This document shows positions 25,214-52,818 of a stretch of 64,000 nucleotides of DNA, piece by piece. Numbering within the stretch: position 1 is the first letter of the stretch; the number at the start of each line of letters is the position of its first letter. The stretch comes from Tersicoccus solisilvae (GTDB lineage: Bacteria; Actinomycetota; Actinomycetes; Actinomycetales; Micrococcaceae): NCBI RefSeq assembly GCF_014643255.1, contig NZ_BMJI01000007.1, positions 62,001 through 126,000 on the forward strand. The letters run 5' to 3'. Made by a program: the position numbers and the translations under genes. The notes beneath the pieces are model-generated. The model saw only the letters and a program-made list of their open reading frames with translations. It was not told where the DNA came from and searched no databases.

Positions 25214-25412
25214 CGCGACGACGGACAGGGGGGAGCCGGGGGCCGGGCGCCGCAGGTGCCCGGCCCCTGCCGCGCCCGGCGCACGTCCCGACCCCCGGTC
25301 TCGCGCTGGATAGAGTGGTTGGCGTGCTCGGCAACGGCTCGAGCGACCTCGATGTCACCCGTTCCCGCGCACGTCCCTCGCCCGGGCAACGCCTTCCGTC
25401 CGGAAAGGGACC

Positions 25413-26486
25413 ATGAAGATCCTCAGCGTCGTCGGGGCCCGCCCCCAGTTCGTCAAGCTCGCCCCCATCGCGAAGGCTATGGAGGGCGCGGCGGAGCACG
25501 TCATCGTGCACACCGGCCAGCACTACGACGAGCTGATGAGCGACGTCTTCTTCCGGGACCTGGGCATCCCGGCCCCCGACGTCAACCTCGGCGTCGGCTC
25601 CGGCAAGCACGGCGCCCAGACGGGGACGATGCTCGCGGGACTGGAGGAGGTCCTCGAAGCCCAACGGCCCGACTGCGTCCTGGTCTACGGGGACACCAAC
25701 TCGACGCTGGCGGCCGCGCTCGCCGCGGTGAAGATCCATGTCCCGGTGGCGCACCTGGAGGCCGGTCTGCGGTCGTTCAACCGGCGCATGCCGGAGGAGC
25801 ACAACCGCGTGCTGACCGACCATGCGGCCGATCTGCTGCTGGCACCGACCCAGGTCGCGGTGGACCACCTGGCCACCGAGGGGCTCGCCGACCGCACCGT
25901 GCTCGTGGGCGATGTCATGACCGACGTCCTCCACGCCGTCCGGGACCGGCTCACCGCGGCGGAGCCCGCGCTGCCGGAGGGCCTGACGGCGGGCGGCTAC
26001 TACGTCAGCACGATCCACCGGCCCGACAACACGGACGATCCGGAGCGGCTCGGCGCCATCGTCTCCTCGCTGGCCGCCCTGGACCGGCCCGTCCTGCTGC
26101 TGGCGCACCCCCGGCTCGCGGACCTGGCCCAGCGTCACGGCATCGCCCTGGAGCAGGGCGCGATCCGCGTGTCCGCACCCCTGGCCTACCCCCAGCTGGT
26201 CGACGCGGCGCGCAACGCGGCCGGCGTCGTCACGGATTCGGGTGGACTGCAGAAGGAGGCGTTCCTGCTGCGGGTCCCCTGCACCACCATCCGCCCGGAG
26301 ACGGAGTGGGTCGAGACCGTGGACCTGGGGTGGAACGTGCTGGTCAGCGAGGATCTCTCGACGCTCACCGCCACGGTCCAGCGGCCGGCGCCTGCCCCCA
26401 CCGACGCGACCCCCTACGGCGACGGTCACGCCGCCGAGCGGACCGTGGCGGCTCTCGAGGACGCGTTCGCGCCGGTCTCCCGCTGA
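25413..26486 (+). CDS. wbpI: Non-hydrolysing UDP-sugar 2-epimerase, WbpI-like
   Basis: A 357-residue member of the UDP-GlcNAc 2-epimerase family: VVGARPQFVKLAPI, HTGQHYDELMSDVFFRDL, VYGDTNSTLAAAL, HLEAGLRS, PEEHNRVLTDH, TDSGGLQKEAFLLRVPC, and IRPETEWVETV in place of the MRENTERPE of true WecB (compare the 41.2-kb gene). That substitution and the facing wbpA-D-E-B genes point to WbpI, which converts UDP-GlcNAc3NAcA to UDP-ManNAc3NAcA. A TAGAGT at 25311-25316 is a possible -10. It ends at a shared terminator. Confidence 0.85.
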   Translation: MKILSVVGARPQFVKLAPIAKAMEGAAEHVIVHTGQHYDELMSDVFFRDLGIPAPDVNLGVGSGKHGAQTGTMLAGLEEVLEAQRPDCVLVYGDTNSTLAAALAAVKIHVPVAHLEAGLRSFNRRMPEEHNRVLTDHAADLLLAPTQVAVDHLATEGLADRTVLVGDVMTDVLHAVRDRLTAAEPALPEGLTAGGYYVSTIHRPDNTDDPERLGAIVSSLAALDRPVLLLAHPRLADLAQRHGIALEQGAIRVSAPLAYPQLVDAARNAAGVVTDSGGLQKEAFLLRVPCTTIRPETEWVETVDLGWNVLVSEDLSTLTATVQRPAPAPTDATPYGDGHAAERTVAALEDAFAPVSR

Positions 26487-26487
26487 C

Positions 26488-26532
26488 GCGACTGATGCGG
26501 GCCCCCACGAGGTGGAGGCCCGCATCAGTCGC
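26488..26532. terminator. Bidirectional terminator between wbpI and wbpB
   Basis: Perfect 16-base arms GCGACTGATGCGGGCC (26488-26503) and GGCCCGCATCAGTCGC (26517-26532) with a 13-base loop, lying two bases after the wbpI stop and 24 bases after the wbpB stop. It serves both converging genes. Confidence 0.9.
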
Positions 26533-26556
26533 GGTACGGCCGGCAGCGGCCGCGCG

Positions 26557-27567
26557 TCACGCCGGTTGGAGGACGACCGTCTGCTGGGAGTCCGCGGAGG
26601 CGATCATCGCCTCCGCCATCCGCAGGGTGTTCAGGCCCTCACGCATCGTGACGATGCTGGTGGCGGCGTCGCGCCCACCGCCGAGGATGGCGTCGCGGAA
26701 CGCCTCGTGTTCGAGCCGCAGCGGCTCGGGCTTCGGGATCGCGAAACGCGTCACGTTGCCTTCGGCGACACCGCGGAAGGCGGCGACGGCGTCCCACTCC
26801 GTGACGGTCGACCCGTTCTCGTGGAAGGTCAGGTCGGCGGTGAGGGTGTCCGCGACGAACGCCCCGCGCTCCCCCGTCACCACGGTCACCCGTTCCTTCA
26901 TGGGCGAGAGCCAGTTGACGAGATGGCTGGTCATGATGCCGTTCTCGAGGCTGCCGACGGCGGCGACCATGTCCTCGTGCGGTCGCCCGGACTGCGTCGT
27001 CGTGCGCGCGCTGACCGAGACGAACGGGGACTGCGCCAGCCAGGCGGTCAGGTCGATGTCGTGGGTGCCCAGGTCCTTGACGACGCCCACGTCGGCGATG
27101 CGGGCCGGGAACGGGCCCTGCCGCCGGGTGGCGATCTGGTAGACCTGCCCGAGTTCCCCGGCCTCGATCCGTGCGCGCAGCGACTGCAGCGCGGGGTTGA
27201 ACCGCTCGATGTGGCCGACCGCGCCGACGAGCCCGCGGGACTCGAAGGCGTCGACGAGCCGCTCGCCCGCGGCCACCGAGTGGGCGATGGGTTTCTCCAC
27301 CAGGGCGTGGACGCCGGCCTCGGCCAGCGCGAGACCGACCTCCTCGTGCAGTCCGGTCGGCACCGCGACGACCGCCAGGTCGAGCCCGGCCGCGATCAGC
27401 TCCTCGACGTTGCGCAGGACGGGCAGGGCGCCGGCCGCGCCGTGCGGGTCACCGACCGCGTCGGCGACGGCGATGAGGTCCACGCCGTCGAGCTCGCGCA
27501 GCACGCGCGCATGGTTGCGGCCCATCATGCCGAGCCCGATGAGGCCCGCGCGCAGGTTCGCCGCCAT
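26557..27567 (-). CDS. wbpB: UDP-sugar 3-dehydrogenase, Gfo/Idh/MocA family (WbpB-like)
   Basis: A 336-residue NAD-dependent oxidoreductase. The Rossmann motif is GLIGLGMMGRNHARVL, the family motif is EKPIAHSVAAGE, and DLGTHDIDLTAWL holds the catalytic His region. In the Wbp route it oxidises C3 of UDP-GlcNAcA and works with the WbpE aminotransferase. The ATG overlaps the wbpE stop by one base (TGATG). The last gene of the operon. Confidence 0.87.
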   Translation of the reverse strand: MAANLRAGLIGLGMMGRNHARVLRELDGVDLIAVADAVGDPHGAAGALPVLRNVEELIAAGLDLAVVAVPTGLHEEVGLALAEAGVHALVEKPIAHSVAAGERLVDAFESRGLVGAVGHIERFNPALQSLRARIEAGELGQVYQIATRRQGPFPARIADVGVVKDLGTHDIDLTAWLAQSPFVSVSARTTTQSGRPHEDMVAAVGSLENGIMTSHLVNWLSPMKERVTVVTGERGAFVADTLTADLTFHENGSTVTEWDAVAAFRGVAEGNVTRFAIPKPEPLRLEHEAFRDAILGGGRDAATSIVTMREGLNTLRMAEAMIASADSQQTVVLQPA

Positions 27568-28658
27568 CAGGCACCCGCTCCCGCGAGCGCGTTGACCGCG
27601 GTGACGATGCGTTCGAGGTCCTCCTGGTCCAGGGAGGGGTGTACCGGCAGGGAGAGCACCTGCGCGGCGGTCGTCTCGGTGTTGGGCAGCTCCTCCGTGC
27701 GGTGGAAGGAGGGCAGCCGGTGGTTGGGCACCGGGTAGTAGACGCCGGAGCCGATGTCGTACTGCTCCCGCAGGGCCTTGGCGAAGCCGTCCCGGTCCTC
27801 CTCGATGCGGATCGTGTACTGGTGGTAGACGTGCACGGCGCCGTCGGCGACGGCGGGCGTCGTCACGTTCTCCAGGTGCTCGGTCAGGAAGGCCGCGTTG
27901 TCCTGCCGGGTGCGCGTCCAGCCCTCGACCTTGGTCAGCTGGACCCGCCCGATCGCGGCGTGCAGGTTGGTCATCCGCGCGTTGAAGCCGACGAGCTCGT
28001 TCTCGTACTGCTTCTCCATGCCCTGGTTGCGGAGCAGCCGGAGCCGCCGCTCGACGTCGGGCTCCGCGGTCGAGACCATGCCGCCCTCGCCCGAGGTCAT
28101 GTTCTTCGTCGGGTAGAGGCTGAAGACGCCGAAGGTGCCGAAGGTGCCGACGCGCCGGCCGTTCAGGCTGGCGCCGTGGGCCTGGGCCGCGTCCTCGAAC
28201 AGGGCGATGCCGTGCTCGTCGGCGAGGGCCTGGAAGCGGTCCGCGGCGAACGGGTGCCCGTACAGGTGCACCGGCATGATGCCCTTGGTCTTGTCGGTGA
28301 TCAGCGACGCGACGTGGTCGGGGTCGAGGTTGTAGTGATCCAGCTCGATGTCGGCGAACACCGGGGTGGCCCCGGTCAGTGCCACCGAGTTGCCGGTCGC
28401 GGCGAACGTGAAGGACGGGACGATGACCTCGTCCCCCGGGCCGATCCCGGCCGCGAGCAGGCCCAGGTGCAGGCCCGACGTGCCGGAGTTGACGGCGACG
28501 GTGGAGCGTCCGTCCAGGAGCACCCGGCTGAACTCCTGCTCGAAGGACGCCACCTCGGCGCCCTGGGCCAGCATGCCGCTGACCAGGACGGCGTCGACGG
28601 CGCGCCGTTCCTCGTCGCCGACGATCGGCTTCGCCGCCGGGATGAACTCCTTGCTCAT
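27567..28658 (-). CDS. wbpE: PLP aminotransferase, DegT/DnrJ/EryC1 family (WbpE-like)
   Basis: A 363-residue sugar aminotransferase. NSGTSGLHLGL binds the cofactor phosphate, LFEDAAQAHGA holds its Asp and neighbouring residues, and the Schiff-base Lys is in FSLYPTKNMTSGEGG. It would transfer an amino group to C3 of the keto sugar made by WbpB. Start ATG overlaps the stop of the acetyltransferase gene (ATGA). Family certain; the C3 position is taken from the neighbours. Confidence 0.9.
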   Translation of the reverse strand: MSKEFIPAAKPIVGDEERRAVDAVLVSGMLAQGAEVASFEQEFSRVLLDGRSTVAVNSGTSGLHLGLLAAGIGPGDEVIVPSFTFAATGNSVALTGATPVFADIELDHYNLDPDHVASLITDKTKGIMPVHLYGHPFAADRFQALADEHGIALFEDAAQAHGASLNGRRVGTFGTFGVFSLYPTKNMTSGEGGMVSTAEPDVERRLRLLRNQGMEKQYENELVGFNARMTNLHAAIGRVQLTKVEGWTRTRQDNAAFLTEHLENVTTPAVADGAVHVYHQYTIRIEEDRDGFAKALREQYDIGSGVYYPVPNHRLPSFHRTEELPNTETTAAQVLSLPVHPSLDQEDLERIVTAVNALAGAGA

Positions 28659-29251
28659 GCGTTCTCCTCCACCTGGGTGAGTTCCTCACCGGTCTGCACG
28701 TACGTCTCGCCGGTCTGCGGGCACACCCACCGGCCGTCCTTCTCCTGCAGGGGGTGGCCGGCGCGGCCCACCCACCCGATGCGCCGGGCCGGGACGCCGG
28801 CCATCAGCGCGAATGCGGGAACGTCCTTGGTCACCACCGCGCCGGCGGCGATCGTCGCCCACCGGCCGATCGTCACCGGTGCCACGCACACGCTGCGCGC
28901 TCCGACGGAGGCGCCCTCGCGCACCGTGACACCCACCGGCGTCCAGTCGTGCGCGCTCTTGAGCGACCCGTCCGGGCTGATCGACCGGGGGTAGGTGTCG
29001 TTCGTCAGCACCACCGCGGGGCCGATGAACACGCCCCGTTCGAGCTCGGCGGGCTCGTAGACGAGGGCGTAGTTCTGGATCTTGGTGTTCTCGCCGATCC
29101 GGACCCCGGTGCCGACGTAGGCGCCCCGGCCCACGATGCAGTTGGCGCCGAGCACGGCGTCCTCACGCACCTGCGCGAGATGCCAGACCTTCGTGCCGTC
29201 GCCGAGCGTCGCGCGCTCGGAGACGTCCGCGCTGTCCACGACCTGTGCCAT
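28655..29251 (-). CDS. wbpD: Left-handed beta-helix N-acetyltransferase (WbpD-like)
   Basis: A 198-residue hexapeptide-repeat acetyltransferase: isoleucine/valine-rich six-residue turns run from DVSERATLGDGTKVW to GRWATIAAGAVVTKDVPAFALMAGVPARRIG. The pattern matches WbpD/WlbB, which acetylate the 3-amino group of UDP-GlcNAc3NA. The C-terminal 40 residues (GRWVCPQTGETY) are an extension of the kind seen in these acetyltransferases. Overlaps wbpE by four bases. Confidence 0.88.
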   Translation of the reverse strand: MAQVVDSADVSERATLGDGTKVWHLAQVREDAVLGANCIVGRGAYVGTGVRIGENTKIQNYALVYEPAELERGVFIGPAVVLTNDTYPRSISPDGSLKSAHDWTPVGVTVREGASVGARSVCVAPVTIGRWATIAAGAVVTKDVPAFALMAGVPARRIGWVGRAGHPLQEKDGRWVCPQTGETYVQTGEELTQVEENA

Positions 29252-29298
29252 GACTGGGTGCTCCTCCCGTGGCCGTCCTGATCGCGTGGTCTCGCCGC

Positions 29299-30594
29299 TC
29301 ACGCGGCGGGCCGCCCGATCACGCGGTACGCAGCGCCCGGCCAACGCTCGGGCGAGGAGACCCGGCGGCCGTCGATGAAGGTGCGGATCCCGGGCAGGTC
29401 CTCGGTGCTGATGGTCCGGTATTCGGCGTGGTCGGCCTGCACGACGGCGGCGTCGACGGGCTCGCCCAGGTGGTAGGCGGTGAACCCCAGCTTCTCGAGC
29501 TCCTCGTCCGTGTACATCGGGTCGTGGACCAGCACCGTGGCGCCCCGGGCGGTGAGCGATCGGACGGCGTCGAACACGCCGGAGAACGCGGTCTCCTTGA
29601 CGCCACCGCGGTACGCGGCACCGAGGACGACGACGCGCTGACCGGTCAGGTCGCCATGGGCGCCCTCCAGCAGCCCGACGGTGAAGTCCGGCATCCCGGC
29701 ATTGGCCTCCCGCGCGGCCCGCACCACTGTGGCGTCCGGGTCGTTCCACAGGTAGAGCCGCGGGTAGACCGGGATGCAGTGGCCACCGACGGCGATGCCG
29801 GGCTGGTGGATGTGGCTGTAGGGCTGCGAGTTGGACGCCTCGATCACGTGGTAGACGTCGATGCCGTTCTGGCCGGCGTAGCGGGCGAACTGGTTCGCCA
29901 GGCCGATGTTGACGTCCCGGTAGGTGGTCTCGGCGAGCTTGGCCAGCTCCGAGGCCTCGGCCGAGCCGAGGTCCCACACGCCGTTGGGTCGGGGCAGGTC
30001 GTCACGCGCGTCGAAGTCGAGGACGGCCTCGTAGAACTCCTGCGCCTGCTGCGCCCCGGCCTCGCTCAGGCCGCCGATCAGCTTGGGGTACTTGCGCAGG
30101 TCCTCGAACACGCGACCGGTCAGCACCCGCTCCGGCGAGAAGACGAGGTGGAAGTCCCGGCCCTCGGTCAGCCCCGAGATCTCCTCGAGCATCGGCTTCC
30201 AGCGGTTGCGGGTGGTTCCCACCGGCAGCGTGGTCTCGTAGGAGACCAGCGTGCCGGGCGTGAGCTGCTCGGCCAGCGACCGGGTCGCGGCGTCCATCCA
30301 GCCGAAGTCGGGGCGGGCCTCGTCGTCGACGAACAGCGGCACCACCAGAACGACGGCGTCGGCCCCTGGCACGGCCTGCGCGTAGTCGGTCGTGGCCGTC
30401 AAGCGTCCGGCCGGCACGAGCTCGGAGAGCTTCTCCTGCAGGTGTGCCTCGCCGGGGAACGGCTCTCGCCCGGCGTTCACCTCGTCGACCACCGCCTGGT
30501 TGACATCGACGCCGATGACGTCGTGCCCCTTCGACGCGAACTGGACGGCCAACGGGAGACCGATCTTCCCCAGAGCGATGACGGTGATCTTCAC
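29299..30594 (-). CDS. wbpA: UDP-N-acetylglucosamine 6-dehydrogenase (WbpA-like)
   Basis: A 431-residue UDP-sugar dehydrogenase that oxidises C6 to a carboxylate in two NAD-dependent steps. The N-terminal Rossmann start is IALGKIGLPLAVQFASKG, the linker is KLAETTYRDVNIGLANQFA, and the catalytic Cys is in GGHCIPVYPRLYL. It heads the wbpA-D-E-B operon. A TAGCAT (minus strand; plus 30661-30666) is a plausible -10 element. UDP-GlcNAc is the likely substrate from the neighbours. Confidence 0.88.
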   Translation of the reverse strand: MKITVIALGKIGLPLAVQFASKGHDVIGVDVNQAVVDEVNAGREPFPGEAHLQEKLSELVPAGRLTATTDYAQAVPGADAVVLVVPLFVDDEARPDFGWMDAATRSLAEQLTPGTLVSYETTLPVGTTRNRWKPMLEEISGLTEGRDFHLVFSPERVLTGRVFEDLRKYPKLIGGLSEAGAQQAQEFYEAVLDFDARDDLPRPNGVWDLGSAEASELAKLAETTYRDVNIGLANQFARYAGQNGIDVYHVIEASNSQPYSHIHQPGIAVGGHCIPVYPRLYLWNDPDATVVRAAREANAGMPDFTVGLLEGAHGDLTGQRVVVLGAAYRGGVKETAFSGVFDAVRSLTARGATVLVHDPMYTDEELEKLGFTAYHLGEPVDAAVVQADHAEYRTISTEDLPGIRTFIDGRRVSSPERWPGAAYRVIGRPAA

Positions 30595-30722: not shown

Positions 30723-32027
30723 TCAGTTGGTGAAGAGCTTCCGGGAGGAGTTGACGAGCCGGCCCCAGAGCCCGGATGCGGTGCCGGCACGCTCGCGGTG
30801 GTCGCGCTCGGCGTCCGCTGTCGCATCCGACGCGGCGGCCTCGTGCATGAGACCGGCGTAGATGTCGGCGATCCGCGGCTCGTACGCCTGCCAGTTGTCG
30901 TTGGCGGTGAACTGGGCACAGGACTCGCGCATCCGGTCGAGGTCCGCGGCGGTCACCGCGTTCACCCGGGCCGCGATGTCGTGCGGATCGAGTTCTCGCC
31001 CGACGGTGATGCCGATGCCCCACTCGTTGATCCGCAGCGCCATCTCGGGCATGTCGGTCGCCAGCATGGGCACTCCTGCCGCGGGGTACTCCCACAGCTT
31101 GTTCGGCGAGCAGAAGCGGTGGTTCAGTCCCGTGTCCTCGTACGGGATCGCCCCCAGGGACGCCCCCGCGGTCCAGGACAGCAGCTCGTCGTGCGGCGCC
31201 CCGGGGATCTTCGCGATCCGGCTGCGGCCTTCCGGCCGGTCATCCGCGCGGGCCGCCGCCTCGTCGATCTGGCCGTCGAGCTTCCCCCACCCCATGAACA
31301 CCAGCGACCAGCGCTCGTCGAGCAGCGTGGCCGCTTCGAGCAGGGAGGGGATCCCCCGGTGCGGGGCGAATCCGCCCTGAAAGAGCAGCACCCGTTGGTC
31401 CCGGGCCAGACCCGCGGCGTCGTGCAGGCGTCCGTCATATTCCGACATCGAGACCCGTTCCACCGCGTTCGGCACCAGGGTCGCGGTCGGCAGGCCCGGG
31501 TACTTCTCGGCGTAGAAGTCGGCGATGCTCCGGTTCAGGGTGATGAACGCATCGATGTTCGGCACGTTCTCCCGGATGATGCGGGGGTTGACCACGCGGC
31601 GGACGTCCTCGAGACCGGCGAGGTCCTCGTAGATCTCGTGCGCGTCCCAGACGATCGGGCACCCGAACGTCTCCTTGAACCTGCCGGCCGCGGTGAGCAC
31701 GACGTGGTCGTGGACGTGGACGGCCTCCGGCTCGAACGTGTCCCGGACCTTGGCGAACACCTGTTCGCCCTGGACGCCGAAGGAGGTGAGGACGGAGTTC
31801 TCCCTGGTCGGTTCCAGGCCGTCCTCGCGCATCCGGGCACGAATGATGCTGGTGTCCCGGTGTGCCAGGTGCACCGGGATGCCATTCGGCAGGACGAACT
31901 CCTCGTCCTCGTTCGGCGTCAGGCCGAAGATCCGGACGTCGTGGCCGAGCGCCTTGAGCGTCCCGGCCTCCTTGAGTACCCGAGCATCGTGGAAGACGCC
32001 GTTGTGAACTACGGCCGCGATACGAAT
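30723..32027 (-). CDS. GT4-type glycosyltransferase with no canonical start codon
   Basis: A GT-B glycosyltransferase of about 434 residues. The N-terminal Rossmann part reads IRIAAVVHNGVFHDARVL; later come VHVHDHVVL, VWDAHEIYEDL, VPNAVERV, LLFQGGFAPHRGI and SPNKLWEYPAAGVPML, the donor-sugar-binding region. The first in-frame ATG/GTG/TTG is GTG 31874, which would delete the first 51 residues including the conserved first strand. The frame is closed by TGA upstream. A strong AAGGAAAGG lies before ATT 32027, so I mark that codon as the provisional start; CTG 32051 is also possible. Sugar unknown; likely adds to the wall polymer. Confidence 0.78.
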   Translation of the reverse strand: MRIAAVVHNGVFHDARVLKEAGTLKALGHDVRIFGLTPNEDEEFVLPNGIPVHLAHRDTSIIRARMREDGLEPTRENSVLTSFGVQGEQVFAKVRDTFEPEAVHVHDHVVLTAAGRFKETFGCPIVWDAHEIYEDLAGLEDVRRVVNPRIIRENVPNIDAFITLNRSIADFYAEKYPGLPTATLVPNAVERVSMSEYDGRLHDAAGLARDQRVLLFQGGFAPHRGIPSLLEAATLLDERWSLVFMGWGKLDGQIDEAAARADDRPEGRSRIAKIPGAPHDELLSWTAGASLGAIPYEDTGLNHRFCSPNKLWEYPAAGVPMLATDMPEMALRINEWGIGITVGRELDPHDIAARVNAVTAADLDRMRESCAQFTANDNWQAYEPRIADIYAGLMHEAAASDATADAERDHRERAGTASGLWGRLVNSSRKLFTN

Positions 32028-32139: not shown

Positions 32140-33804
32140 TCACTGCGCGTCCCAATTCGCGTGCGGGGCGAGACGACGCACGGCGCCCACAAGAATCCGG
32201 CGCTCGGATTCCCAGGTGTTGGCCAGACCGAACGTCTCGGCCGCGGTCCGGTATCGCGGGTACGCGGCGGGATCGAGGACGCTGCGGACGCCGGCGGCGA
32301 GAGAGCGCGTGTCCCCGGCGGCGAAGAGTTCCCCGCATCCGCTCCCCTGCACGACGCGCCGCAGTTCCGGGATGTCGGTGGCGACGAACGGGATCCCGGC
32401 ACCGGTGTACTCGAAGACCTTGTTCGGCAGCGCCAGGCGGTTGTTCATCGAGACCGGCTGGTACGGGATCAGGCCCACGTCGGCGCCCATCGTGTAGGAA
32501 GGCAGCTCGTGAGGCGGCACCGCCCCCAGGAAGTGGACGCGATCGGCGACACCGAGATGCTCGGCGCGCGCCGCCAGCATCTCCTGCAGAGTGCCGTACC
32601 CGATCAGGAGGAGGTGGGCGCCCACCGGGAAGTGCTCGACCGCGTCGATGCACAACTCGAGCCCGCGCCCGGCGGCGAACCCACCCTGGTACAGGACGAC
32701 CCGGTCGTCGTCCGTCAGCCCGGTCAGTCCACGCAGATCGACCCGCTTCTCCCGCTGCTCGGCGGTGATCCGGGGACCGCAGTTGCGCAACACGACTCCG
32801 TCGACTCCGTACCGCTCGCGATACTCGTCGCGGATCGACTCGTTGACGATCACCACCGTGTCGGCGCGCCGCATGTACTTCTGTTCGATCGGGCGCAGCA
32901 GTGCTCGCTCGCGCGGGCCGAAGGTGGTGCTCTCGAGGTAGAGCTCGTGGCAGTCGTGCAGGTGCGGCACCCGCGCCCGGCGCGCTCCCCGATTGGCACC
33001 CACCAGACCCGGGAGGTCGGAGCTCACCACGAGGTCGGGCGCCAGGTCCTGGACGCGTCGTGCGGACAGCCGCCAGAACTCCTCGAACCGGTTGATCCGG
33101 TGGAACCGCTTGAGGAAGCGGCGGATGGACTGGTCTCGGGCGGTGCGGGCAGCTCGACCCTGTCGTATCGCCCAGCGGCTCCCCCGCCTCCAGTTGCGGA
33201 CCACCCTGCGGGCGGTCCTGACCGCTCGCGGGTTCGTGATCAGCCGTGCACCTCCCGGAAGCAGTGCCAACAGCGCCAGTTCCGGCGGACGACCGCCTTC
33301 GCCGGCGCGCGTGCGGCGCTCACGCGCGTCGCGCTTGCGCTCCCGGCGCTCGCGCCTCGCGCCATTCGTCGCGCTCAGGTGCTCCGTGTAGCGCACCGCC
33401 AGCGAGCGCGGGTCGAGGAAGTGGACCTGCAGGCGCGGATGATCGAGTCCGACCAGGAAGTCGTCGCGGGGCCGCGTATTCACGATGATCACCTCGGCGC
33501 CCATGTCGAGGAAGGTGAGCACGTTGCGGCGGATCCGACCGCGGATCTGGGGCTTCATCGCCACCACGACGACCCGAGGACGCCGATTCGTCACCGCCGG
33601 CACCTGTCGGCTCACGCCGTCGAGGCTCGGTTCGCCCTCGCGCTCGCGAGCCCCGGACACTCGGCCCGTGAGATCCAGTGCCTCGACGTGGCCGCCACCC
33701 CGATCGTTCATCGCGTTCGCCGTGCCCACGCCGGCCGCGTCGAGGCTCCTGATCGGTTCGACCCGCGGACGAGAACGCGATTCGCTCTCCCTGGGAACGC
33801 ACAT
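32140..33804 (-). CDS. GT4-type glycosyltransferase with long basic insertion
   Basis: A 554-residue GT-B glycosyltransferase. N-terminal half: VVVVAMKPQIRGRIRRNVLTF and VSSDLPGLVG; C-terminal half: HLHDCHELYLES, VVLYQGGFAAGRGLELCI, ALPNKVFEYTGAGIPFVATDI. Between them lies an Arg/Lys-rich helical stretch (about 165-250, e.g. RRERRERKRDARERR) absent from most relatives and likely to lie on the membrane surface. The first 90 residues look disordered; ATG 33804 and ATG 33711 are both possible starts. Divergent from the 34-kb gene. Confidence 0.8.
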   Translation of the reverse strand: MCVPRESESRSRPRVEPIRSLDAAGVGTANAMNDRGGGHVEALDLTGRVSGAREREGEPSLDGVSRQVPAVTNRRPRVVVVAMKPQIRGRIRRNVLTFLDMGAEVIIVNTRPRDDFLVGLDHPRLQVHFLDPRSLAVRYTEHLSATNGARRERRERKRDARERRTRAGEGGRPPELALLALLPGGARLITNPRAVRTARRVVRNWRRGSRWAIRQGRAARTARDQSIRRFLKRFHRINRFEEFWRLSARRVQDLAPDLVVSSDLPGLVGANRGARRARVPHLHDCHELYLESTTFGPRERALLRPIEQKYMRRADTVVIVNESIRDEYRERYGVDGVVLRNCGPRITAEQREKRVDLRGLTGLTDDDRVVLYQGGFAAGRGLELCIDAVEHFPVGAHLLLIGYGTLQEMLAARAEHLGVADRVHFLGAVPPHELPSYTMGADVGLIPYQPVSMNNRLALPNKVFEYTGAGIPFVATDIPELRRVVQGSGCGELFAAGDTRSLAAGVRSVLDPAAYPRYRTAAETFGLANTWESERRILVGAVRRLAPHANWDAQ

Positions 33805-38725: not shown

Positions 38726-39361
38726 GTGCTTCAGCAGAAGTCGAGGATTCTGGTCCTTGCTCCTCACACGGACGACGGTGAGCTCGGTTGTGGCGGCACG
38801 ATCGCCCGCCTCATCAAAGAAGGACACGAGGTTCACTATGTTGCCTTCTGCAACTGCGACGAGAGTCTTCCGGAGGGCATCGCTCCCGGCACACTTCGCG
38901 CGGAAGTGATGCGCGCCACCAACGTTCTCGGCATCCCCCCCGAGCGGGTGAGTGTGCTCGATTTCCGCGTTCGGTACCTGGCGGACCAGCGGCAGGGCGT
39001 GCTACAGCACCTCGTGGAGCTGAATCGTGATCTGAAGCCGAGCGTGGTCTTCTGCCCGACTCGAGAGGATCTCCATCAGGACCACGCGGTCGTGGCCACC
39101 GAGGCTCTCCGCGCATTCAAGGCGCGGACGATCCTGGGGTATGAGATGCCGTGGAACAACATCACCTTCGACGCCAACATGCTGGTGCGTCTCGAGGAGC
39201 GGGACGTGGAACTGAAGGTCGCGGCGCTGGCCGAGTACGAGTCACAGCGACACCGTCCGTACATCACCGAACGTTTCATCCGCGGGTTGAGCCACTCGCG
39301 GGGAGTCACCATCGGTGAGGAATACGCCGAGGCGTTCACGTTGTACCGGGGGGTGCTCTGA
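38726..39361 (+). CDS. PIG-L family deacetylase
   Basis: A 211-residue zinc-dependent de-N-acetylase of the PIG-L/MshB family. The metal site is in LAPHTDDGELGCGG (His-x-x-Asp-Asp) with the third ligand in LHQDHAVV. It removes an acetyl group from an N-acetyl sugar. The GTG start, six bases after the previous stop, has TAGGAAGA upstream. The next gene fuses an acetyltransferase to a WbqC domain, so the pair may swap one N-acyl group for another on a sugar. Confidence 0.9.
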   Translation: MLQQKSRILVLAPHTDDGELGCGGTIARLIKEGHEVHYVAFCNCDESLPEGIAPGTLRAEVMRATNVLGIPPERVSVLDFRVRYLADQRQGVLQHLVELNRDLKPSVVFCPTREDLHQDHAVVATEALRAFKARTILGYEMPWNNITFDANMLVRLEERDVELKVAALAEYESQRHRPYITERFIRGLSHSRGVTIGEEYAEAFTLYRGVL

Positions 39362-39365
39362 CCCG

Positions 39366-40499
39366 ATGTCGAACCTCAATTTCTCCGTTCTCGAGAAAGA
39401 CCAGCTTGAGATTCGCCTGCCAGAACTTCGTGCGGTGGACGCGGACGTCGAGTGGATGACCTGGGATGACGCTGCTTATCTCAGAGATCTGCCACGCAAA
39501 TGGGAGTTGTCCCGCCTGGCTGAACGTGACGGCGCCGTCGTGGGCTACGCACTGTGTTCTGAGAAGGGCGACACCGTCTGGCTGCACCGCATTGCGACCG
39601 GGCGATCAATGCGTGGGTCTGGCCTCGGGTCGGAACTCCTGCACGCGGTCGAGCGAGGAGCACGTGAGCGCGGATTCGCCAAGGTTAGCCTCAAGACCCC
39701 GACGGCCAACACAGACGCGCGCCGGTTCTACGAGTCCAACGGCTACGGAGAGATGGGGAGGGACTCTGAGCACGTGCAGCTGGGTAAGGTGCTCAAGCCT
39801 GCGGTGGTCGGCGTCCACCAGCCGAATTACCTGCCCTGGCTCGGATATTTCTACAAGCTCAGCCGCAGTGACACGTTCGTCATTCTCGATGATGTCCTGG
39901 CACCGAGCAGGGGCTACTTCAACCGCTCCAAGGTTCTGGTCCAGGGTCAAGGCCGATGGATGACCGTCCCCGTGCACCGCAATGACGGCTATATCCATCA
40001 CATGACGACCGCTGACGGCGAGTGGGTCGCGAAGCATCTGGGGACGCTGAGGCACAATTACCAGAATGCGCCGTTCTATGACGAGTTGATGCCGGAACTG
40101 GGCGAACTGATCGAACGCCACTCGGTCGGACGGCTGGCCGAGCTCAACGAGGCTCTCATCTCCCACGTGGCCGGCCTGCTCGGCATCACCACGCCCTGTG
40201 TCAGATCGTCGCGATTCGCCCTCGAGACGAAGGGCGATCAGAGGCTCGTCGACCTCGTCGCTGCGGTCGGCGGATCTTCCTATCTGTCGGGCAACGGTGG
40301 CGACAATTACCAGGAGGCCGAGACCTTCGGAGCGGCGGGACTCGAACTGGTGTATACCGGCTTCACCAGCGAGCCGTATGGGCAGCAGCACCCCGAGTTC
40401 GTTCCTGGGCTCTCTGCCGTCGACGCCCTGTTCAATATCGGCCCCGCCGCCACGCGGCAGCTCATCGACGACGCTCCGGCGCCTCAACAGCGGAGCTGA
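39366..40499 (+). CDS. GNAT acetyltransferase fused to WbqC-like protein
   Basis: A 377-residue two-domain protein. Residues 1-140 are a GNAT fold (acetyl-CoA loop in ATGRSMRGSGLGSELLHAV, then NTDARRFYESNGYGEMG). Residues 146-370 match the WbqC family (VGVHQPNYLPWLGYFYKLSRSDTFVILDDV; SSYLSGNGGDNYQEAETF). WbqC proteins occur in sugar N-acyl modification clusters; their chemistry is not settled. Starts four bases after the PIG-L stop. The fusion ties acyl transfer and WbqC to one substrate. Confidence 0.87.
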   Translation: MSNLNFSVLEKDQLEIRLPELRAVDADVEWMTWDDAAYLRDLPRKWELSRLAERDGAVVGYALCSEKGDTVWLHRIATGRSMRGSGLGSELLHAVERGARERGFAKVSLKTPTANTDARRFYESNGYGEMGRDSEHVQLGKVLKPAVVGVHQPNYLPWLGYFYKLSRSDTFVILDDVLAPSRGYFNRSKVLVQGQGRWMTVPVHRNDGYIHHMTTADGEWVAKHLGTLRHNYQNAPFYDELMPELGELIERHSVGRLAELNEALISHVAGLLGITTPCVRSSRFALETKGDQRLVDLVAAVGGSSYLSGNGGDNYQEAETFGAAGLELVYTGFTSEPYGQQHPEFVPGLSAVDALFNIGPAATRQLIDDAPAPQQRS

Positions 40500-41234: not shown

Positions 41235-42377
41235 ATGCCCGTTGTCATGCCGATCTTCGGCACCCGTCCGGAGGCCATCAAGATGGCGCCCGTCGTCGAG
41301 GCACTGCGGCGGGCCGGCGGAGTCGAGTGCTTCGTCGCTGTCACGGGCCAGCACCGGGAGATGCTCGACCAGGTCAACGAGCTGTTCGGCATCAAGCCCG
41401 ATCACGACCTGGACATTCTGCAGCCGCGTCAGTCACTCACCGGGATCATGACCCGCACGATGGAAGGCCTCGACCGGCTCTTCACCGAGAACCGGCCGGA
41501 CGCCGTCATCGTTCAGGGCGACACGACGACGACGATGGCCGGCGCCCTCACGGCCTTCCAGCACGGCATTCCCGTGGTGCACGTCGAGGCGGGACTGCGC
41601 AGTGGCAACCTCTTCTCGCCGTTTCCCGAAGAGGCCAACCGCAAGATCACCAGCCAGGTCGCCAGCCTTCACCTCGCGCCGACGCCGACGAGCCGGGACA
41701 ACCTGCTGGCCGAAGGGATCGACCGTGACGACGTCGTCGTCACCGGCAATACCGTCATCGACGCCCTGTTGACCACGGCCGGCAAGGAGATCCCGTTCTC
41801 CGATCCGGTGCTCGAGGAGCTGGCCTCCAGTGGTCGCCGGGTGCTGCTGGTGACCACGCATCGCCGAGAGAACCAGGGCGAAGCCATGGAGGGCGTCGGC
41901 CGTGCGCTGGCCCGCGTCGCGGCCGCCGAACCGGACGTGACGATCGTCCTGCCGGCGCACAAGAATCCGGTGGTTCGGGAAGCCGTGCTGCCGGCCATCG
42001 AGGGCCTGCCGAACGTCATCGTCACCGAGCCCCTGGCGTACGGCGAGTTCACCCGCATGATCGCGATGAGCCACGTCGTCCTCACCGACTCCGGCGGCGT
42101 GCAGGAGGAGGCGCCCAGTCTGGGCAAGCCGGTGCTCGTGATGCGGGAGAACACCGAACGACCCGAGGCCGTCACCGCCGGCACGGTACTGCTGATCGGA
42201 ACCGACGAGAACCGCATCGTGGCCGAGGTCCATCGCCTGCTTCACGATGAGAAGCACTTCGACGCCATGGCCCACGCCGTCAACCCCTACGGCGACGGAC
42301 GGGCCGCCGAACGGACCGTGGCCGCCGTCCTTCAATTGCTCGGTCTCGGGAAGCGAATCGACGAATTCACGGGCTGA
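41235..42377 (+). CDS. wecB: UDP-N-acetylglucosamine 2-epimerase (non-hydrolysing)
   Basis: A 380-residue epimerase that converts UDP-GlcNAc to UDP-ManNAc. FGTRPEAIKMAPVVEAL, VTGQHREMLDQV, VQGDTTTTMAGAL, HVEAGLRSGNLFSPFPEEANRK, LVTTHRRENQGE, DSGGVQEEAPSLGKPVLVMRENTERPEAV are all canonical. It pairs with the UDP-ManNAc dehydrogenase at 48.7 kb to make UDP-ManNAcA. This is the second epimerase in the window; the first (25.4 kb) is of the WbpI type. Confidence 0.95.
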   Translation: MPVVMPIFGTRPEAIKMAPVVEALRRAGGVECFVAVTGQHREMLDQVNELFGIKPDHDLDILQPRQSLTGIMTRTMEGLDRLFTENRPDAVIVQGDTTTTMAGALTAFQHGIPVVHVEAGLRSGNLFSPFPEEANRKITSQVASLHLAPTPTSRDNLLAEGIDRDDVVVTGNTVIDALLTTAGKEIPFSDPVLEELASSGRRVLLVTTHRRENQGEAMEGVGRALARVAAAEPDVTIVLPAHKNPVVREAVLPAIEGLPNVIVTEPLAYGEFTRMIAMSHVVLTDSGGVQEEAPSLGKPVLVMRENTERPEAVTAGTVLLIGTDENRIVAEVHRLLHDEKHFDAMAHAVNPYGDGRAAERTVAAVLQLLGLGKRIDEFTG

Positions 42378-42477: not shown

Positions 42478-43803
42478 ATGAGCACAGCGGACGCGTACAT
42501 CACCAATGAGCGTGAGGTCGGGCTGCCACCGCTCCACTTGGCGAGGAAGGCCGTCTGGGACTACTACCAAGTGGAATTCCTGCCCAATGGGTACCCCGGA
42601 CGGCGCACCAACGGAGTGCTTTTTGCGCATCCCATCTACGGTCCCTACGTCATCACCGATTATCTCGCCCAATACCGTCGCACGAAGAATCCCACATTCC
42701 TCGAGGCCGCGTGTAGAGTCGCGGACGCCGCCGTCGACCAGATGGAGGTGCTGCACGACGGACTTGTTTTCATGTACGACGAGGAGAAGGCCAAGGTCTC
42801 CAGCAAGAAGGGGACGTGGTACAGCGGACTGACACAGTCCCGCTACATCAACGTCTTCACCAACCTGCTGGCGGAGCCCGGGACGGATCGCTTCCGGGAG
42901 CCGCTGTCGGCAATTCTCGCCAGTCTGACGATTCCTGTCGAGAATGGAGGCGTCGCGCGTTACACCGACAATGGTGGTCTCATCATCGAGGAGTATCCGT
43001 CGGTCTTCCCGAACTGCACGCTGAACGGGTGGACGAGGGCGACGTGTGTGATCAAGGACCTCGCCGTGTCAAGTGGCGACGAGAACGTCTGGGACATCTT
43101 CGCCAAGTCGGTTCGCGGCATCGAGAGCGTCATCTCGCTCTATGACGTCCCCGAACTGGCGAACTCCCGGTACAAGCTCGAAGGGGACGCGACGCTGCGG
43201 TTGACCGTCGATGGCGCTGACATCGACGTCCTGGACTGTCGGGTGCTCATTCCCGGAAGCGGCACGTTCGCAGCGAATGCGGAAGGGGACCCCGCGGGGG
43301 AAGTGCTCAAGAACGGCCCGGTGAAGCTGACCGACGGTCGTGCGCACACGCTCAAGGTCCTTCTCAGCAGGTATTCATGGCCTGCCCCGAACCGGGTGCT
43401 GCTCACGGTCGATGCTCCACAGGACGCCAAGCTCGCCGTGGCCATCGGTGACGGCGAATACAACCCGCTGGCCAGCAGTCCGCGCGTCCGCTCCTATCGG
43501 CCAACGCGCGAGTTCGCTGTGCCGGCAGGGGAGAGCATCGTCGAGGTGGAGGTCCCGTGGACAGAGGCGGAGATGGTCGCGCATCCGACGAACTTCGGAA
43601 AGAAGATCGCGGGTAGGCAGTTCAACCAGTATCACTTCATCCACGTCGATACCCTCGGCGAGATCCTCACGCGGACCGACAGTGACATCCTGCGCTATTA
43701 CCGAGACCGGTGGGATCAGTACCCGTCACGATGGCCCGAGTTGCCGGCGTACCAGGACGAAGGTCTCATGCTCGAGCGGTTCAACGTTCAGAAGCACCAG
43801 TAG
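42478..43803 (+). CDS. D-glucuronyl C5-epimerase-like protein
   Basis: A 441-residue protein without signal peptide. It resembles the C-terminal domain of glucuronyl C5-epimerases: an alpha/alpha barrel with GTWYSGLTQSRYINVFTNLL and IIEEYPSVFPNCTLNGWTRA, then beta-strands. These enzymes flip C5 of uronic acids in a polymer (GlcA to IdoA). Here, beside ManNAcA genes, the substrate could be a mannosaminuronic residue, giving the gulo form; this is inference. Being cytoplasmic, it would act before export. Preceded by an A/T-rich leader (42420-42475). Confidence 0.7.
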   Translation: MSTADAYITNEREVGLPPLHLARKAVWDYYQVEFLPNGYPGRRTNGVLFAHPIYGPYVITDYLAQYRRTKNPTFLEAACRVADAAVDQMEVLHDGLVFMYDEEKAKVSSKKGTWYSGLTQSRYINVFTNLLAEPGTDRFREPLSAILASLTIPVENGGVARYTDNGGLIIEEYPSVFPNCTLNGWTRATCVIKDLAVSSGDENVWDIFAKSVRGIESVISLYDVPELANSRYKLEGDATLRLTVDGADIDVLDCRVLIPGSGTFAANAEGDPAGEVLKNGPVKLTDGRAHTLKVLLSRYSWPAPNRVLLTVDAPQDAKLAVAIGDGEYNPLASSPRVRSYRPTREFAVPAGESIVEVEVPWTEAEMVAHPTNFGKKIAGRQFNQYHFIHVDTLGEILTRTDSDILRYYRDRWDQYPSRWPELPAYQDEGLMLERFNVQKHQ

Positions 43804-45776: not shown

Positions 45777-48620
45777 TCACCGGGCCCCCGTCATGAACTC
45801 GAGGGCCTGCTGGCGATAGTGGGCATACCGTGGGGCCGTGGCGGCGACATGCCCCTGGCCCCAGTCGACAGGGATGAACCGCACGCGATCGGAATGGGCG
45901 GGATGAACGTCCTCCAGCATCGCCCGGAAGGGAGCCAGGTGGTGCTCGACGTGGTGCTGGTCCCGCTCGTTCTGCACGTACAGGATGCGCGGCAACCGCT
46001 CGACTTCCCGATATCGGTCGATGACGGAGACCCGACGCCGAAGGTCGGCGGGCACGTTCCCGACCGAGGTGCGCAGACACGTCCGCAGCGCCCTCTCGGC
46101 ACTCGGCGCGAAGTACGCCTCCACATCCGTCTGCGGATTGAAGGCGAGCACCGTGGCGTCCTCGAGCCACGCAGCGACCTGAAGGGCGGTGAAACCACCG
46201 CCGGAACTCCCGGTCAGCAGCACGCGACGGGAACCGGTCAGCTGGGCCACCCGATCGATCCAGGCCGCCATCTGTCGGTGGAGGTCGACGTCCGGGGTGC
46301 CCAGGTACCAGGACAGCGTCATGCCTCTGTCCAGGTCCAGGCTCGGATCCTGAAAGATCGCGAAACTGTCCGCCTTTCCGAGGTCGCTCGTCAGACCCTG
46401 GAAGAGCGGCAGCGTCGACTTCGTCCGGTTGACCGCTCCGTGGAAGCGAACGGTCAGCGTGTCGCTGGTGCCACGCCCGTAGGCAACCGGAAGGACGAGC
46501 GGTCCGAGATCGGCGGCGACGAGGGTCGCCCCGTCGGAGACGGCGGTCAGTTCCTCGAGGCGGTTCACCGTCGACATGTCGAGGCCGTACGTCGCCGAGT
46601 GCAGCGGGCTCTGCCCACTCCAGTCCAGCAGCGGTTCGCGCTTCAGCCCGACGGTCGCCGCTGTGAGTCCGAGTTCCGCCGCCAGGTCGGAGCCGGCCAC
46701 ATCGATCAGCGCGGCGCGCAGACCCTGATCGCTCGTCCGGCGGGGACCGAGGTCGAGGGCCAGGTCGAGCAGACGGGTCAACGCCTCGAGGCGAGCCGAT
46801 CGCAGGTCCGGCTGCGACCGGATCCAGTCCTTGAGCGCGGCGCCGTACTCCGAGGTGTACACGTCCCCCGGAGCCCTCGGCACCGCGCTGGTGGCTGCTG
46901 CCCCTCGGCGGCGGTCGACAGCCGCACGCCGTACGTCTTCCAGGCCGGTGGACGAGGCCGACGGCGTTCCGAGGGTAGCGGTGGCCGACGCCCCGTCGAG
47001 GACGAGGCCGAAGTCATGCCGGCCCACGGTCGCCGCCACGGCCAACCGGCCGCCCGTCGACCGCAGGGAGGTGAGGTCGAAGTGTCCCCGAGGCGGCACG
47101 GCGATCACGGTGATGTAGCGGAACCGGGTGCCCGTCTGCTCGGCGGTGACCACCGGGCCCGGCTCGCCCTCCCCCTGCGCCACGGTGATCTCGGGGATGT
47201 TGCCGCTCCAGAGCAGGGTGGCGCCGGACTCGTCCCGGGTCAGGTCGACTCCGTGGGTCCTGGTCCTGACGGCGGTGCCCGCGTCGAGGTGCCACCGCTG
47301 ACGCGCCGTCACCTCGTCGTCGCTGAGCACCGTGTCCACCACCACGACGAAGTCACCGCCCCGGCAGTAGGTCACGCGACGGCGGATCTCCACACCGGGG
47401 TACCCGCGATCGACGAACAGGAAGTCGTCGACGTCGTCGGTCAGGTGGTGCCGCTCGAGTGCGACGTCGGACGCCGGGTCGTACGGCCGGTCGACGATCT
47501 CGACCACGTTGTGGCTGACGCGGGAGGTCGGCACGTGGTTCTGCTGGTCGACGTCCGGCCCGGCGTCGACCAGCCACGGGTGCCCACCGCTGTGCAGGGT
47601 CAGGGAGCCACCGTCCTGGTGACCACGGGCCCGGTCGGCCCGCCCGAAGGACAGCGAGTAGAAGGTCTCGTCGTCGAACGCCCGTTCATGCGCCCCCCAG
47701 CCGCTGCGGCCGAACGCAAAGCCGCGCCGGTAGACCCGGGCGAGATCGGCGGGCGGCTCACCGGTCGATCCCCGGGACAGCATCCACGCCGCTTCCGCGC
47801 TCGTGACTCCCGCGAGGGTCGCGACGCCGGTGTCGCCGATCCTCTCCAGGGTGCCGTCGGGCCGGGTGGCGTGGGCGAGTTCGAGCGCGGCGAGATCGAG
47901 CCGTTCGGCGGCCGCCGGGCGGGCGATGCCCTCCCGGTCGAGCCGGCTGAGGGCGGTGCGCCACGCCAGGTACGTGCTCTTGTGCTGAGCGACGCTGCCG
48001 GCAGCCGCGATGCCCTCCTCGTCGTAGGTCTCGGCGACCAGCTCCGCGAGGCGATCGACGGCGAGCGTGGTCCAGTCAGCGCGGTGGAACACCGCGCCGA
48101 TGACGAACAGCGCCTGGTGCTGGTGGAGCGCTTGACTCGCCCTGCCGAGATGGCCCGGTTCTGCCAGCCACGCCCCGTGTTCGAGGATGGATTCGATCAG
48201 CCACGGATCGCTGTGGGCGGCGACGAGGGGCAGGGCGAAGACCAGGGACAGCGCGCGTTGCGCCTCGACCATGGGTGTCCACGCCGGGTTCGCCCCACCG
48301 GTCCGGGCGGGGTTGTTCGCGATCCACGATCGGCACGTGCGCAACCAGTAGGCCCGCGCAGCGTCGTCCCCGGTCAGGGCGACCCGCCGCACCGGTTCGA
48401 ACCACCGCAGCATGTGCAGCTGGGTCTGCCAGTTCCGCCGGCCGAACGGGTCGGCGTCCCAGTCCATCGGGTCCGGCAGCTCCCACGCCGGGTGCGGCCG
48501 CAGGGTCACCCGTCCCGCCATCACCTCGTCGGCGACCTCACGGTCGGTCGAGATCGCGGTGTACGCCCCACCGAACATCTGCCGGTGGACGACGTCGAGA
48601 TCGAAACGCGGAAGGGGCAC
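45777..48620 (-). CDS. Heparinase II/III-like protein fused to an alpha/beta hydrolase
   Basis: A 947-residue protein with no signal peptide. Residues 1-270 form an alpha-toroid (ANNPARTGGANPAWTPMVEAQRALS is the usual opening). Residues 290-560 are the beta-sandwich of heparinase II/III lyases (GHQDGGSLTLHSGGHPWLVDAG; SRVSHNVVEIVD). Residues 620-945 are an alpha/beta hydrolase with nucleophile motif LTGSSGGGFTAL and late Asp/His (NERDQHHV; GQGHVAA). It may cleave and de-esterify the uronic-acid polymer; domain assignment is by pattern, and the substrate by context. Confidence 0.78.
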   Translation of the reverse strand: MPLPRFDLDVVHRQMFGGAYTAISTDREVADEVMAGRVTLRPHPAWELPDPMDWDADPFGRRNWQTQLHMLRWFEPVRRVALTGDDAARAYWLRTCRSWIANNPARTGGANPAWTPMVEAQRALSLVFALPLVAAHSDPWLIESILEHGAWLAEPGHLGRASQALHQHQALFVIGAVFHRADWTTLAVDRLAELVAETYDEEGIAAAGSVAQHKSTYLAWRTALSRLDREGIARPAAAERLDLAALELAHATRPDGTLERIGDTGVATLAGVTSAEAAWMLSRGSTGEPPADLARVYRRGFAFGRSGWGAHERAFDDETFYSLSFGRADRARGHQDGGSLTLHSGGHPWLVDAGPDVDQQNHVPTSRVSHNVVEIVDRPYDPASDVALERHHLTDDVDDFLFVDRGYPGVEIRRRVTYCRGGDFVVVVDTVLSDDEVTARQRWHLDAGTAVRTRTHGVDLTRDESGATLLWSGNIPEITVAQGEGEPGPVVTAEQTGTRFRYITVIAVPPRGHFDLTSLRSTGGRLAVAATVGRHDFGLVLDGASATATLGTPSASSTGLEDVRRAAVDRRRGAAATSAVPRAPGDVYTSEYGAALKDWIRSQPDLRSARLEALTRLLDLALDLGPRRTSDQGLRAALIDVAGSDLAAELGLTAATVGLKREPLLDWSGQSPLHSATYGLDMSTVNRLEELTAVSDGATLVAADLGPLVLPVAYGRGTSDTLTVRFHGAVNRTKSTLPLFQGLTSDLGKADSFAIFQDPSLDLDRGMTLSWYLGTPDVDLHRQMAAWIDRVAQLTGSRRVLLTGSSGGGFTALQVAAWLEDATVLAFNPQTDVEAYFAPSAERALRTCLRTSVGNVPADLRRRVSVIDRYREVERLPRILYVQNERDQHHVEHHLAPFRAMLEDVHPAHSDRVRFIPVDWGQGHVAATAPRYAHYRQQALEFMTGAR

Positions 48621-51895: not shown

Positions 51896-52818
51896 CGCCC
51901 GCCTCGGCGTGGTGGCGGTGTCGCCGTGACGGTCGGCATCACGAGGTCGCGCCGGGCATCGGAGCGGATCCGTTCGGCCGTCTCGGGCTCGTCCTGTGCC
52001 AGGGCACGGGCGAAGGCGACATAGGCCTGCGTGACGACCCCGGGCTCGCCGTCCATGATCAGATCGCCCTGGTCGAGCCAGACCACCCGGGTGCACATCT
52101 CCCGGACGGTCGGGATGCTGTGGCTGACCAGCAGCACGCAGCCGGCCTGGGCGCGCAGTTCGTCCATCCGAGCCTTGCTCCGGTCGCCGAACTGCGCGTC
52201 CCCGGTGTTCAGCGCCTCGTCGACGATCAGGATCTCCGGGTTGACGCTGGTGGCGATCGCGAACTGCAACCGCGAGGCCATGCCCGAGGAATACGTCTCC
52301 AGCGGGCGGTAGATGGCCGAGTCCAGGCCGGAGAGATCGACGACCGCGTCGTACCGCTCCTCCACCTCCTGGCGGCTCAGGCCCATGGCGAGCCCCCCGA
52401 GGATGATGTTCTGCTCGCCCGAGAGGGTCGGCATCAGCGCGGCGTTCACCCCGAGCATCACCGGCGTGCTGCTCGCGTGCACGGACCCGGTGGTGGGGCG
52501 TTCGCGGCCGCTGATCATGCGCATCAGGGTGCTCTTGCCGGAGCCGTTGCGGCCGATCACGCCGACGGCTTCCCCGTGGTCGACCACCAGGGAGAGCTCG
52601 TTGACCGCCGGGACGGTCACGGTGCTGCCGCGGGTCGGGCGGCGGCGGATCGAGCGGCGGCCGTGCCGCGCCTCTGCCGCGGCGCTTCCTCCCGTGGCAC
52701 GCACCCGGTACCGGCGGCTCACGCGGTCGACGACGAGCAGCGGCGCTGCCGCCGTCCCGGTCGCGGAGACCGCCGTGCCGGGCGCGGTGCTGGGGGCACC
52801 GGCGTCAGTCGCGGGCAT
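51892..52818 (-). CDS. Polysaccharide ABC exporter ATPase (Wzt/TagH type)
   Basis: A 308-residue ABC ATPase. Walker A GRNGSGKST, signature TYSSGMASRL, Walker B ILIVDEAL and the switch His in VLLVSHS. The insertion after VDRVSRRYRVR, before the core, is usual in O-antigen and teichoic-acid exporters. No carbohydrate-binding C-terminal domain is present, so export need not depend on a chain-end cap. It pairs with the permease gene it overlaps by 14 bases. Confidence 0.93.
   Translation of the reverse strand: MPATDAGAPSTAPGTAVSATGTAAAPLLVVDRVSRRYRVRATGGSAAAEARHGRRSIRRRPTRGSTVTVPAVNELSLVVDHGEAVGVIGRNGSGKSTLMRMISGRERPTTGSVHASSTPVMLGVNAALMPTLSGEQNIILGGLAMGLSRQEVEERYDAVVDLSGLDSAIYRPLETYSSGMASRLQFAIATSVNPEILIVDEALNTGDAQFGDRSKARMDELRAQAGCVLLVSHSIPTVREMCTRVVWLDQGDLIMDGEPGVVTQAYVAFARALAQDEPETAERIRSDARRDLVMPTVTATPPPRRGGR

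Follow-up and report, generated by a model that had tools for sequence, protein, structure and literature searches.

Gene content of the locus

The stretch analysed here, a window of 64,000 nucleotides with a G+C content of 70.7%, comes from an actinobacterial genome, that of Tersicoccus solisilvae (3.34 Mb in 116 contigs). Between positions 25413 and 30594 it carries five genes predicted to make an activated 2,3-diacetamido-mannuronic acid, UDP-ManNAc3NAcA (UDP, uridine diphosphate), probably by a route that oxidizes C3 before C6. An earlier note on this DNA had assigned the five genes to families, and profile searches recover all five reading frames with those families: a UDP-sugar 6-dehydrogenase (A), a C3-dehydrogenase (B), an N-acetyltransferase (D), a 3-aminotransferase (E) and a 2-epimerase (I), lettered here after the Wbp proteins. 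The residues that we take to be catalytic are all in place, namely Cys273 in A, the pyridoxal phosphate (PLP) lysine Lys185 in E, and Lys92 of the EKP motif together with His169 in B. Codon-position G+C picks I, E and A as coding and misses B and D owing to frames that extend further upstream.

The spacing lets A, D, E and B be read as one operon, with overlaps of 4 bases between D and E and 1 base between E and B, and 47 bases between A and D (Table 1). Gene I converges with B over a gap of 70 bases. The two sides had been described as facing each other across one terminator. The convergence stands, and the gap holds a perfect inverted repeat of 17 bp, with an RNA fold of −59.5 kcal/mol (z −7.2) for positions 26480-26560; because a scan of positions 25200-30900 found no U-tract site, a terminator is only plausible. 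Two genus mates (G001 and G002) share A-D-E-B with 86-91% identity and also have I (81%) opposite the operon, about 1.4 kb further off; of the best 47 named loci (L045-L091), 45 have E next to B and 30 have the run D-E-B. Judged by this conservation, the five-gene arrangement is not due to chance.

Table 1. Annotated features of the window, with strand and supporting evidence (aa, amino acids).
Feature	Positions	Strand	Evidence
I: UDP-GlcNAc3NAcA 2-epimerase (WbpI type), predicted	25413..26486	+	357 aa; Pfam Epimerase_2 307 bits; nearest structure 8SXV
Inverted repeat between converging I and B, possible two-way terminator without U tract	26487..26533		17-bp perfect stem
B: C3-dehydrogenase, Gfo/Idh/MocA, UDP-GlcNAc 3-dehydrogenase group	26557..27567	-	336 aa; profiles, tree
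E: PLP-dependent 3-aminotransferase, DegT/DnrJ/EryC1	27567..28658	-	363 aa; 390 bits
D: hexapeptide N-acetyltransferase (WbpD/WlbB type)	28655..29251	-	198 aa, ATG start; nearest structure 3MQG
A: UDP-sugar 6-dehydrogenase of actinobacterial clade	29299..30594	-	431 aa; TIGR03026 304.8 bits
Glycosyltransferase family 4, next to A, same strand as operon	30723..32027	-	55% homologue in L070
Glycosyltransferase family 4, approximate start	32140..33579	-	profile searches
PIG-L de-N-acetylase	38726..39361	+	81% homologue in L070
GNAT + WbqC fusion protein	39315..40499	+	64% homologue in L070
WecB, UDP-GlcNAc 2-epimerase	41235..42377	+	TIGR00236 467.6 bits; UDP-GlcNAc-type residues
D-glucuronyl C5-epimerase family protein	42478..43803	+	PF06662; in 2/59 genomes
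Heparinase II/III-like protein, hydrolase-like C-terminal part	45777..48620	-	S9 match just below cut-off
WecC, UDP-ManNAc 6-dehydrogenase	48691..49977	-	PRK11064 573.9 bits, cut-off 459
Two-gene ABC exporter (ATPase + membrane protein)	51892..53719	-	PF00005, PF01061
LytR-CpsA-Psr ligase, candidate for polymer attachment to peptidoglycan	57514..58584	-	PF03816 2.4e-41

The epimerase and the predicted product

That the five genes form a complete set for UDP-ManNAc3NAcA, as had been proposed, we consider very probable because of the specificity residues of I, the nearest structures of I and D, and the co-occurrence of I, A and B. The best match of I among solved structures is 8SXV, the UDP-GlcNAc3NAcA 2-epimerase of Thermus thermophilus (5.4e-102), followed by 4NEQ (7.7e-76), with 1VGV at 7.6e-34. 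Ligand and catalytic residues of the T. thermophilus enzyme are identical in I at 19 of 21 positions, the changes being Ala18 to Leu16 and Lys245 to Asp237. In the T. thermophilus enzyme, Trp307, Tyr96 and Ala18 replace Arg, His or Gln, and Leu or Met, respectively, and are said to admit a bulkier substrate (PMC10622841). At these three positions I has Trp299, Tyr92 and Leu16, and the second epimerase of the window, WecB, has Arg, Gln and Met. WecB also contains the MRENTERPE motif, which is absent from I, as the earlier note had observed, and has RPETEWVE in its place. The nearest solved relative of D is 3MQG (8.5e-38; next 1.4e-23), presumably WlbB.

The same sugar is documented in actinobacteria, and the view that it would be unusual in a Gram-positive wall does not hold. 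The Streptomyces griseus teichuronic acid, with a structure determined by nuclear magnetic resonance, is described as containing ManNAc3NAcA and is linked to a utr locus with the same five enzyme types (PMC13274773); the Cutibacterium acnes polysaccharide, present in matrix and cell wall, is described as having two ManNAc3NAcA residues per unit (PMC6598116). The likeness to C. acnes concerns the polymer alone. The B proteins of the Streptomyces microflavus and S. globisporus loci are 64% identical to that of the window and fall in the same clade. In the comparison with the utr locus, the window differs by WecB and WecC, an ABC exporter, and proteins of the C5-epimerase family and of heparinase-like type.

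Distribution of the gene set

To follow the genes among relatives we used a sample of 59 genomes, the window's own included, with orthologue thresholds of at least 60% for B, 63% for A and 65% for I. B is present in 25 of them, A in 24 and I in 15 (one 38% match of I was left out), with the I set inside the A set and the A set inside the B set. After these 25 genomes the best E-values of B jump from 6.8e-118 to 6.9e-27, and I is associated with B (Fisher 8e-8, relatedness ignored). One in-frame stop each was found in B of G054, A of G050 and G051, and I of G057.

A sample of the phylum, 396 genomes, contains B in 30 (at 1e-60), A in 26 (at 1e-90) and both in 24. I reaches 1e-90 in 50 genomes, of which 20 have B, and B accompanies I in 10 of the 10 genomes where I is at least 62%; the link of I with B holds for close orthologues only. 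Among the matches listed, named carriers of B belong to Streptomyces, Kribbella, Acidipropionibacterium, Leifsonia, Microbacterium, Dietzia, Actinomyces oris and Jiangella, the closest being Arthrobacter sp. ES3-54 (78%). The gene set is a widespread, patchy actinobacterial trait.

Two dehydrogenases outside the classical families

The five genes had been matched, one each, to the steps of the Pseudomonas/Bordetella route. This assignment holds for the families of I, D and E; by sequence, B is neither WbpB nor WlbA, and A falls outside the WbpA/TviB group. Among 56 solved relatives of B at 1e-5, the UDP-GlcNAc (UDP-N-acetylglucosamine) 3-dehydrogenase GnnA of Acidithiobacillus ferrooxidans is the best (1.2e-21) and WlbA (3q2k, 6.1e-18) the second of the named ones; none is a WbpB entry. 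Conversely, a plasmid WbpB used as query matches only WbpB structures at 1e-10. In tblastn searches at 1e-8, B has no match in three classical wbp operons (Pseudomonas frederiksbergensis, Deinococcus radiophilus and Sulfitobacter pontiacus), and D, E and I each match all three.

A tree of 39 rows places B, together with GnnA-like and archaeal proteins, in a group of 35 rows that separates from WbpB and WlbA with support of 99/95 and from WbpB with 100/99. The B sequences drawn on were the best 80 of 586 relatives, retrieved by motifs of the clade to which the window's B belongs, which is a bias; WlbA and GnnA are partial rows, WlbA sits on a long branch, and the WbpB and WlbA references were added separately. 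The motif PFxxRxxDVxVxxDLxxHDxD occurs in 13 of 14 actinobacterial rows, 9 of 9 GnnA-like rows, 4 of 5 from Chloroflexota and 1 of 7 archaeal ones, and in none of the three WbpB rows or the single WlbA row. By these comparisons B is a member of the group of UDP-GlcNAc 3-dehydrogenases (GnnA and archaeal), outside WbpB and WlbA. Its identification as WbpB was rejected on the basis of the structure hits, the searches of the wbp operons and the tree; a closer kinship with WlbA than with UDP-GlcNAc 3-dehydrogenases is contradicted by the ranking of GnnA ahead of WlbA and by the tree split.

For A, the tree shows a clade of 12 rows (99/99) inside one of 23 rows (100/97), with WbpA, TviB and one Chloroflexota row apart (99/92), and a plain WbpA assignment was rejected on these grounds. 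A also falls outside WecC and groups with the A of Haloferax (L140), a Woesearchaeote and several Chloroflexota. Partners of B with an A outside the window's clade occur in Chloroflexota (L092, L093 and L097) and Methanolobus (L123). The aminotransferase E, judged by solved structures, is a DegT-family enzyme related to WbpE (1.2e-57 at best) and nearer to others, among them 7B0D (1.1e-78) and 2OGA (3.3e-72).

Known systems resemble the window in different parts. The WbpA-B-E-D-I pathway of Pseudomonas aeruginosa shares the reaction types, the predicted product and the families of I, D and E (PMC10622841), whereas A and B of the window belong to other groups and the order of steps is probably different. 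GnnA and GnnB, which convert UDP-GlcNAc to UDP-GlcNAc3N, and lipid A with GlcN3N (2,3-diamino-glucose) are reported for Bradyrhizobium (PMC5644692, PMC7663294); B of the window is in the same wider group, whereas the product there is a lipid A sugar and the loci are without D, A and I. In our comparison, loci of Bradyrhizobium, Rhodopseudomonas and Brevundimonas have B and E side by side without A, D or I; among solved structures, GnnA is the best match of the Bradyrhizobium B (1.4e-31). A plasmid operon of Haloferax lucentense (L140) unites D, E, B, A and I, with a B of the window's wider group; it differs in its 33-50% identity and in serving an archaeal glycan.

Two deep actinobacterial loci (L179 and L180, from G092 and G294) have a WbpA-type A with D and I, and in L179 also E. 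Their Gfo/Idh/MocA dehydrogenase forms a third class, with an RLNLG stretch, unlike WbpB, WlbA and GnnA. The pairing of a WbpA-type A with this third class hints at A and B changing together.

Order of steps

From the families, the specificity residues of the epimerase, the groups of A and B, co-occurrence and synteny we infer substrates, an order of steps and a polymer. B would oxidize UDP-GlcNAc at C3 as the first step, E would aminate C3, and D would acetylate the amine to UDP-GlcNAc3NAc. A would then oxidize C6 of this diacetamido sugar to UDP-GlcNAc3NAcA, and I would turn over C2 to give UDP-ManNAc3NAcA, for use in an exported, probably wall-linked glycopolymer together with N-acetylmannosaminuronic acid (ManNAcA) from WecB and WecC. 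Taken as a whole, the product together with the C3-first order is fairly likely. The order is proposed because B lies in the UDP-GlcNAc 3-dehydrogenase group, A lies outside WbpA/TviB, and one genome of the same family, G012, has the module without a 6-dehydrogenase.

G012 (99% complete) encodes B (59%), E (65%) and D (67%), and shows neither an A orthologue nor a match to PF00984 at 1e-5, whereas 13 of 14 control genomes have this family. With nothing of that family to supply UDP-GlcNAcA (the uronic acid of UDP-GlcNAc) to B, the module would work on UDP-GlcNAc, and G012 provides the best evidence for such an activity of D-E-B. Its locus (L159) is flanked by a Stealth-type transferase and by a protein joining GT2 to a CDP-glycerol-type (teichoic-acid) polymerase; a GlcNAc3NAc-bearing teichoic acid is possible there. 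Microbacterium paulum (L082) and Nocardioides marmorisolisilvae (L085) have D-E-B without an A orthologue as well, with other 6-dehydrogenases present.

Several results weigh against this account. In the epimerase, Leu16 departs from Ala18 of the T. thermophilus enzyme, although it looks like a lineage feature because all 15 actinobacterial I orthologues examined, one from the Streptomyces microflavus locus, share it. TIGR00236 names I a UDP-GlcNAc 2-epimerase with a score above the cut-off; the epimerases of plasmid wbp operons bear the same gene name, so it cannot tell both types apart. B is just 25-27% identical to GnnA in structural alignments, the tree does not make the two sisters, and in a tree enlarged by six rows, including the third class of B, the WlbA split has 91/98 and is not starred. 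On NF040723 (archaeal UDP-GlcNAc 3-dehydrogenase, cut-off 450) B scores 206.8 bits, the B of Haloferax 225 and that of Methanolobus 525.2. An AlphaFold2 model of B (pLDDT, the model's confidence score, 91.2) cannot separate GnnA (Z 37.0) from WlbA (36.2) by fold comparison, and many other Gfo/Idh/MocA proteins score alike. The nearest relative of D, WlbB, and WbpE, to which E is related, both belong to a C6-first pathway. In the phylum sample, A is found without B in 2 of 26 genomes, both with a GnnA-like gene near A, which breaks, at the thresholds used, any rule that A always comes with B; B lacks A in 6 of 30, one of these by threshold only. G012 is one draft assembly, in which a gap is possible. 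Finally, the characterized routes, as described for Pseudomonas, are C6-first (PMC10622841), and that of S. griseus was assigned by likeness to P. aeruginosa (PMC13274773).

The same product could also arise in the Pseudomonas/Bordetella order, with A acting on C6 of UDP-GlcNAc, B, E and D then working on the uronic acid, and I last. The published utr assignment follows this order (PMC13274773). The proximity of D to 3MQG and of E to WbpE fits it too, as does the second rank of WlbA, a UDP-GlcNAcA enzyme, among the named relatives of B. It is nevertheless unlikely given the groups in which A and B fall, the B, E and D of G012 without a detected 6-dehydrogenase, and the relatives' sample, where none of the 59 genomes has A without B. 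An end sugar other than UDP-ManNAc3NAcA, for example UDP-GlcNAc3NAcA with I serving elsewhere as a second UDP-GlcNAc epimerase, would suit the TIGR00236 call and the lack of I in 9 of the 24 relatives with A and B and in 6 of 16 named genomes, where the gluco form itself may serve; the residues that set the specificity of I and the restriction of its close orthologues to genomes with A and B make this very improbable.

Surrounding cluster and polymer

The presence of WecB and WecC in the same locus, noted earlier for the window, recurs in a Brevibacterium metagenome-assembled genome (L070), which has both within 20 kb of D, E, B, A and I. Five further window genes lie in the same 20 kb: the glycosyltransferases at 50, 30.7 and 36 kb, WbqC and PIG-L. 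L155 and L156 combine A-D-E-B with WecB, WecC, Wzm and Wzt, with no I in the stretch. Because L070 keeps all these genes together, the comparison argues for one cluster and one polymer containing both ManNAcA and ManNAc3NAcA. That the five genes and WecB/WecC feed different polymers, from clusters merely side by side, appears rather doubtful in view of L070, L155 and L156. It would agree with the two genus mates, in which no WecB, WecC, C5-epimerase or heparinase was found in the 59-60 kb fetched around the five genes. Judged by the genus mates, the rest of the polymer varies.

Several neighbours could modify or export such a polymer (Table 1). The GNAT-WbqC fusion adjoins PIG-L and both are kept in L070, suggesting de-N-acetylation and re-acylation of the polymer. 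No ATG, GTG or TTG is available to start the conserved N-terminal part of the glycosyltransferase next to A, whose L070 homologue continues in the same way. A purine-rich sequence precedes ATC/ATT at 32030-32025, which makes a rare start codon possible.

The PF06662 and heparinase-like proteins share the cluster much as epimerase and lyase share alginate loci. A C5-epimerase family gene is annotated with an I-type epimerase in a plasmid cluster of Priestia megaterium (L138), and G048 has a 34% homologue of the PF06662 protein about 26 kb from I and B. The cluster ends beside the LytR-CpsA-Psr gene, where a tRNA-Thr (TGT) lies at 58719-58793.

Implications

The setting, ManNAc3NAcA in actinobacteria, is already known, and the new point is the probable C3-first order. 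As a broader and decidedly tentative idea, many actinobacteria might proceed C3-first via UDP-GlcNAc3NAc, with A as a UDP-GlcNAc3NAc 6-dehydrogenase, and the loss or retention of the last genes might make GlcNAc3NAc (possibly so in G012), GlcNAc3NAcA or ManNAc3NAcA the end point of a lineage; in the window, the C5-epimerase family and heparinase-like proteins would act on the finished mannuronic polymer and turn part of it to the L-gulo form, comparable to alginate.

A toxin receptor on Streptomyces is described as including ManNAc3NAcA (PMC13274773). From the gene set one could predict whether a given actinobacterium has the sugar turned at C2, the gluco form, or no more than the diacetamido sugar. 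To judge by the two dehydrogenases, likeness to Pseudomonas, the basis of the published actinobacterial assignment, may fail in the order of steps.

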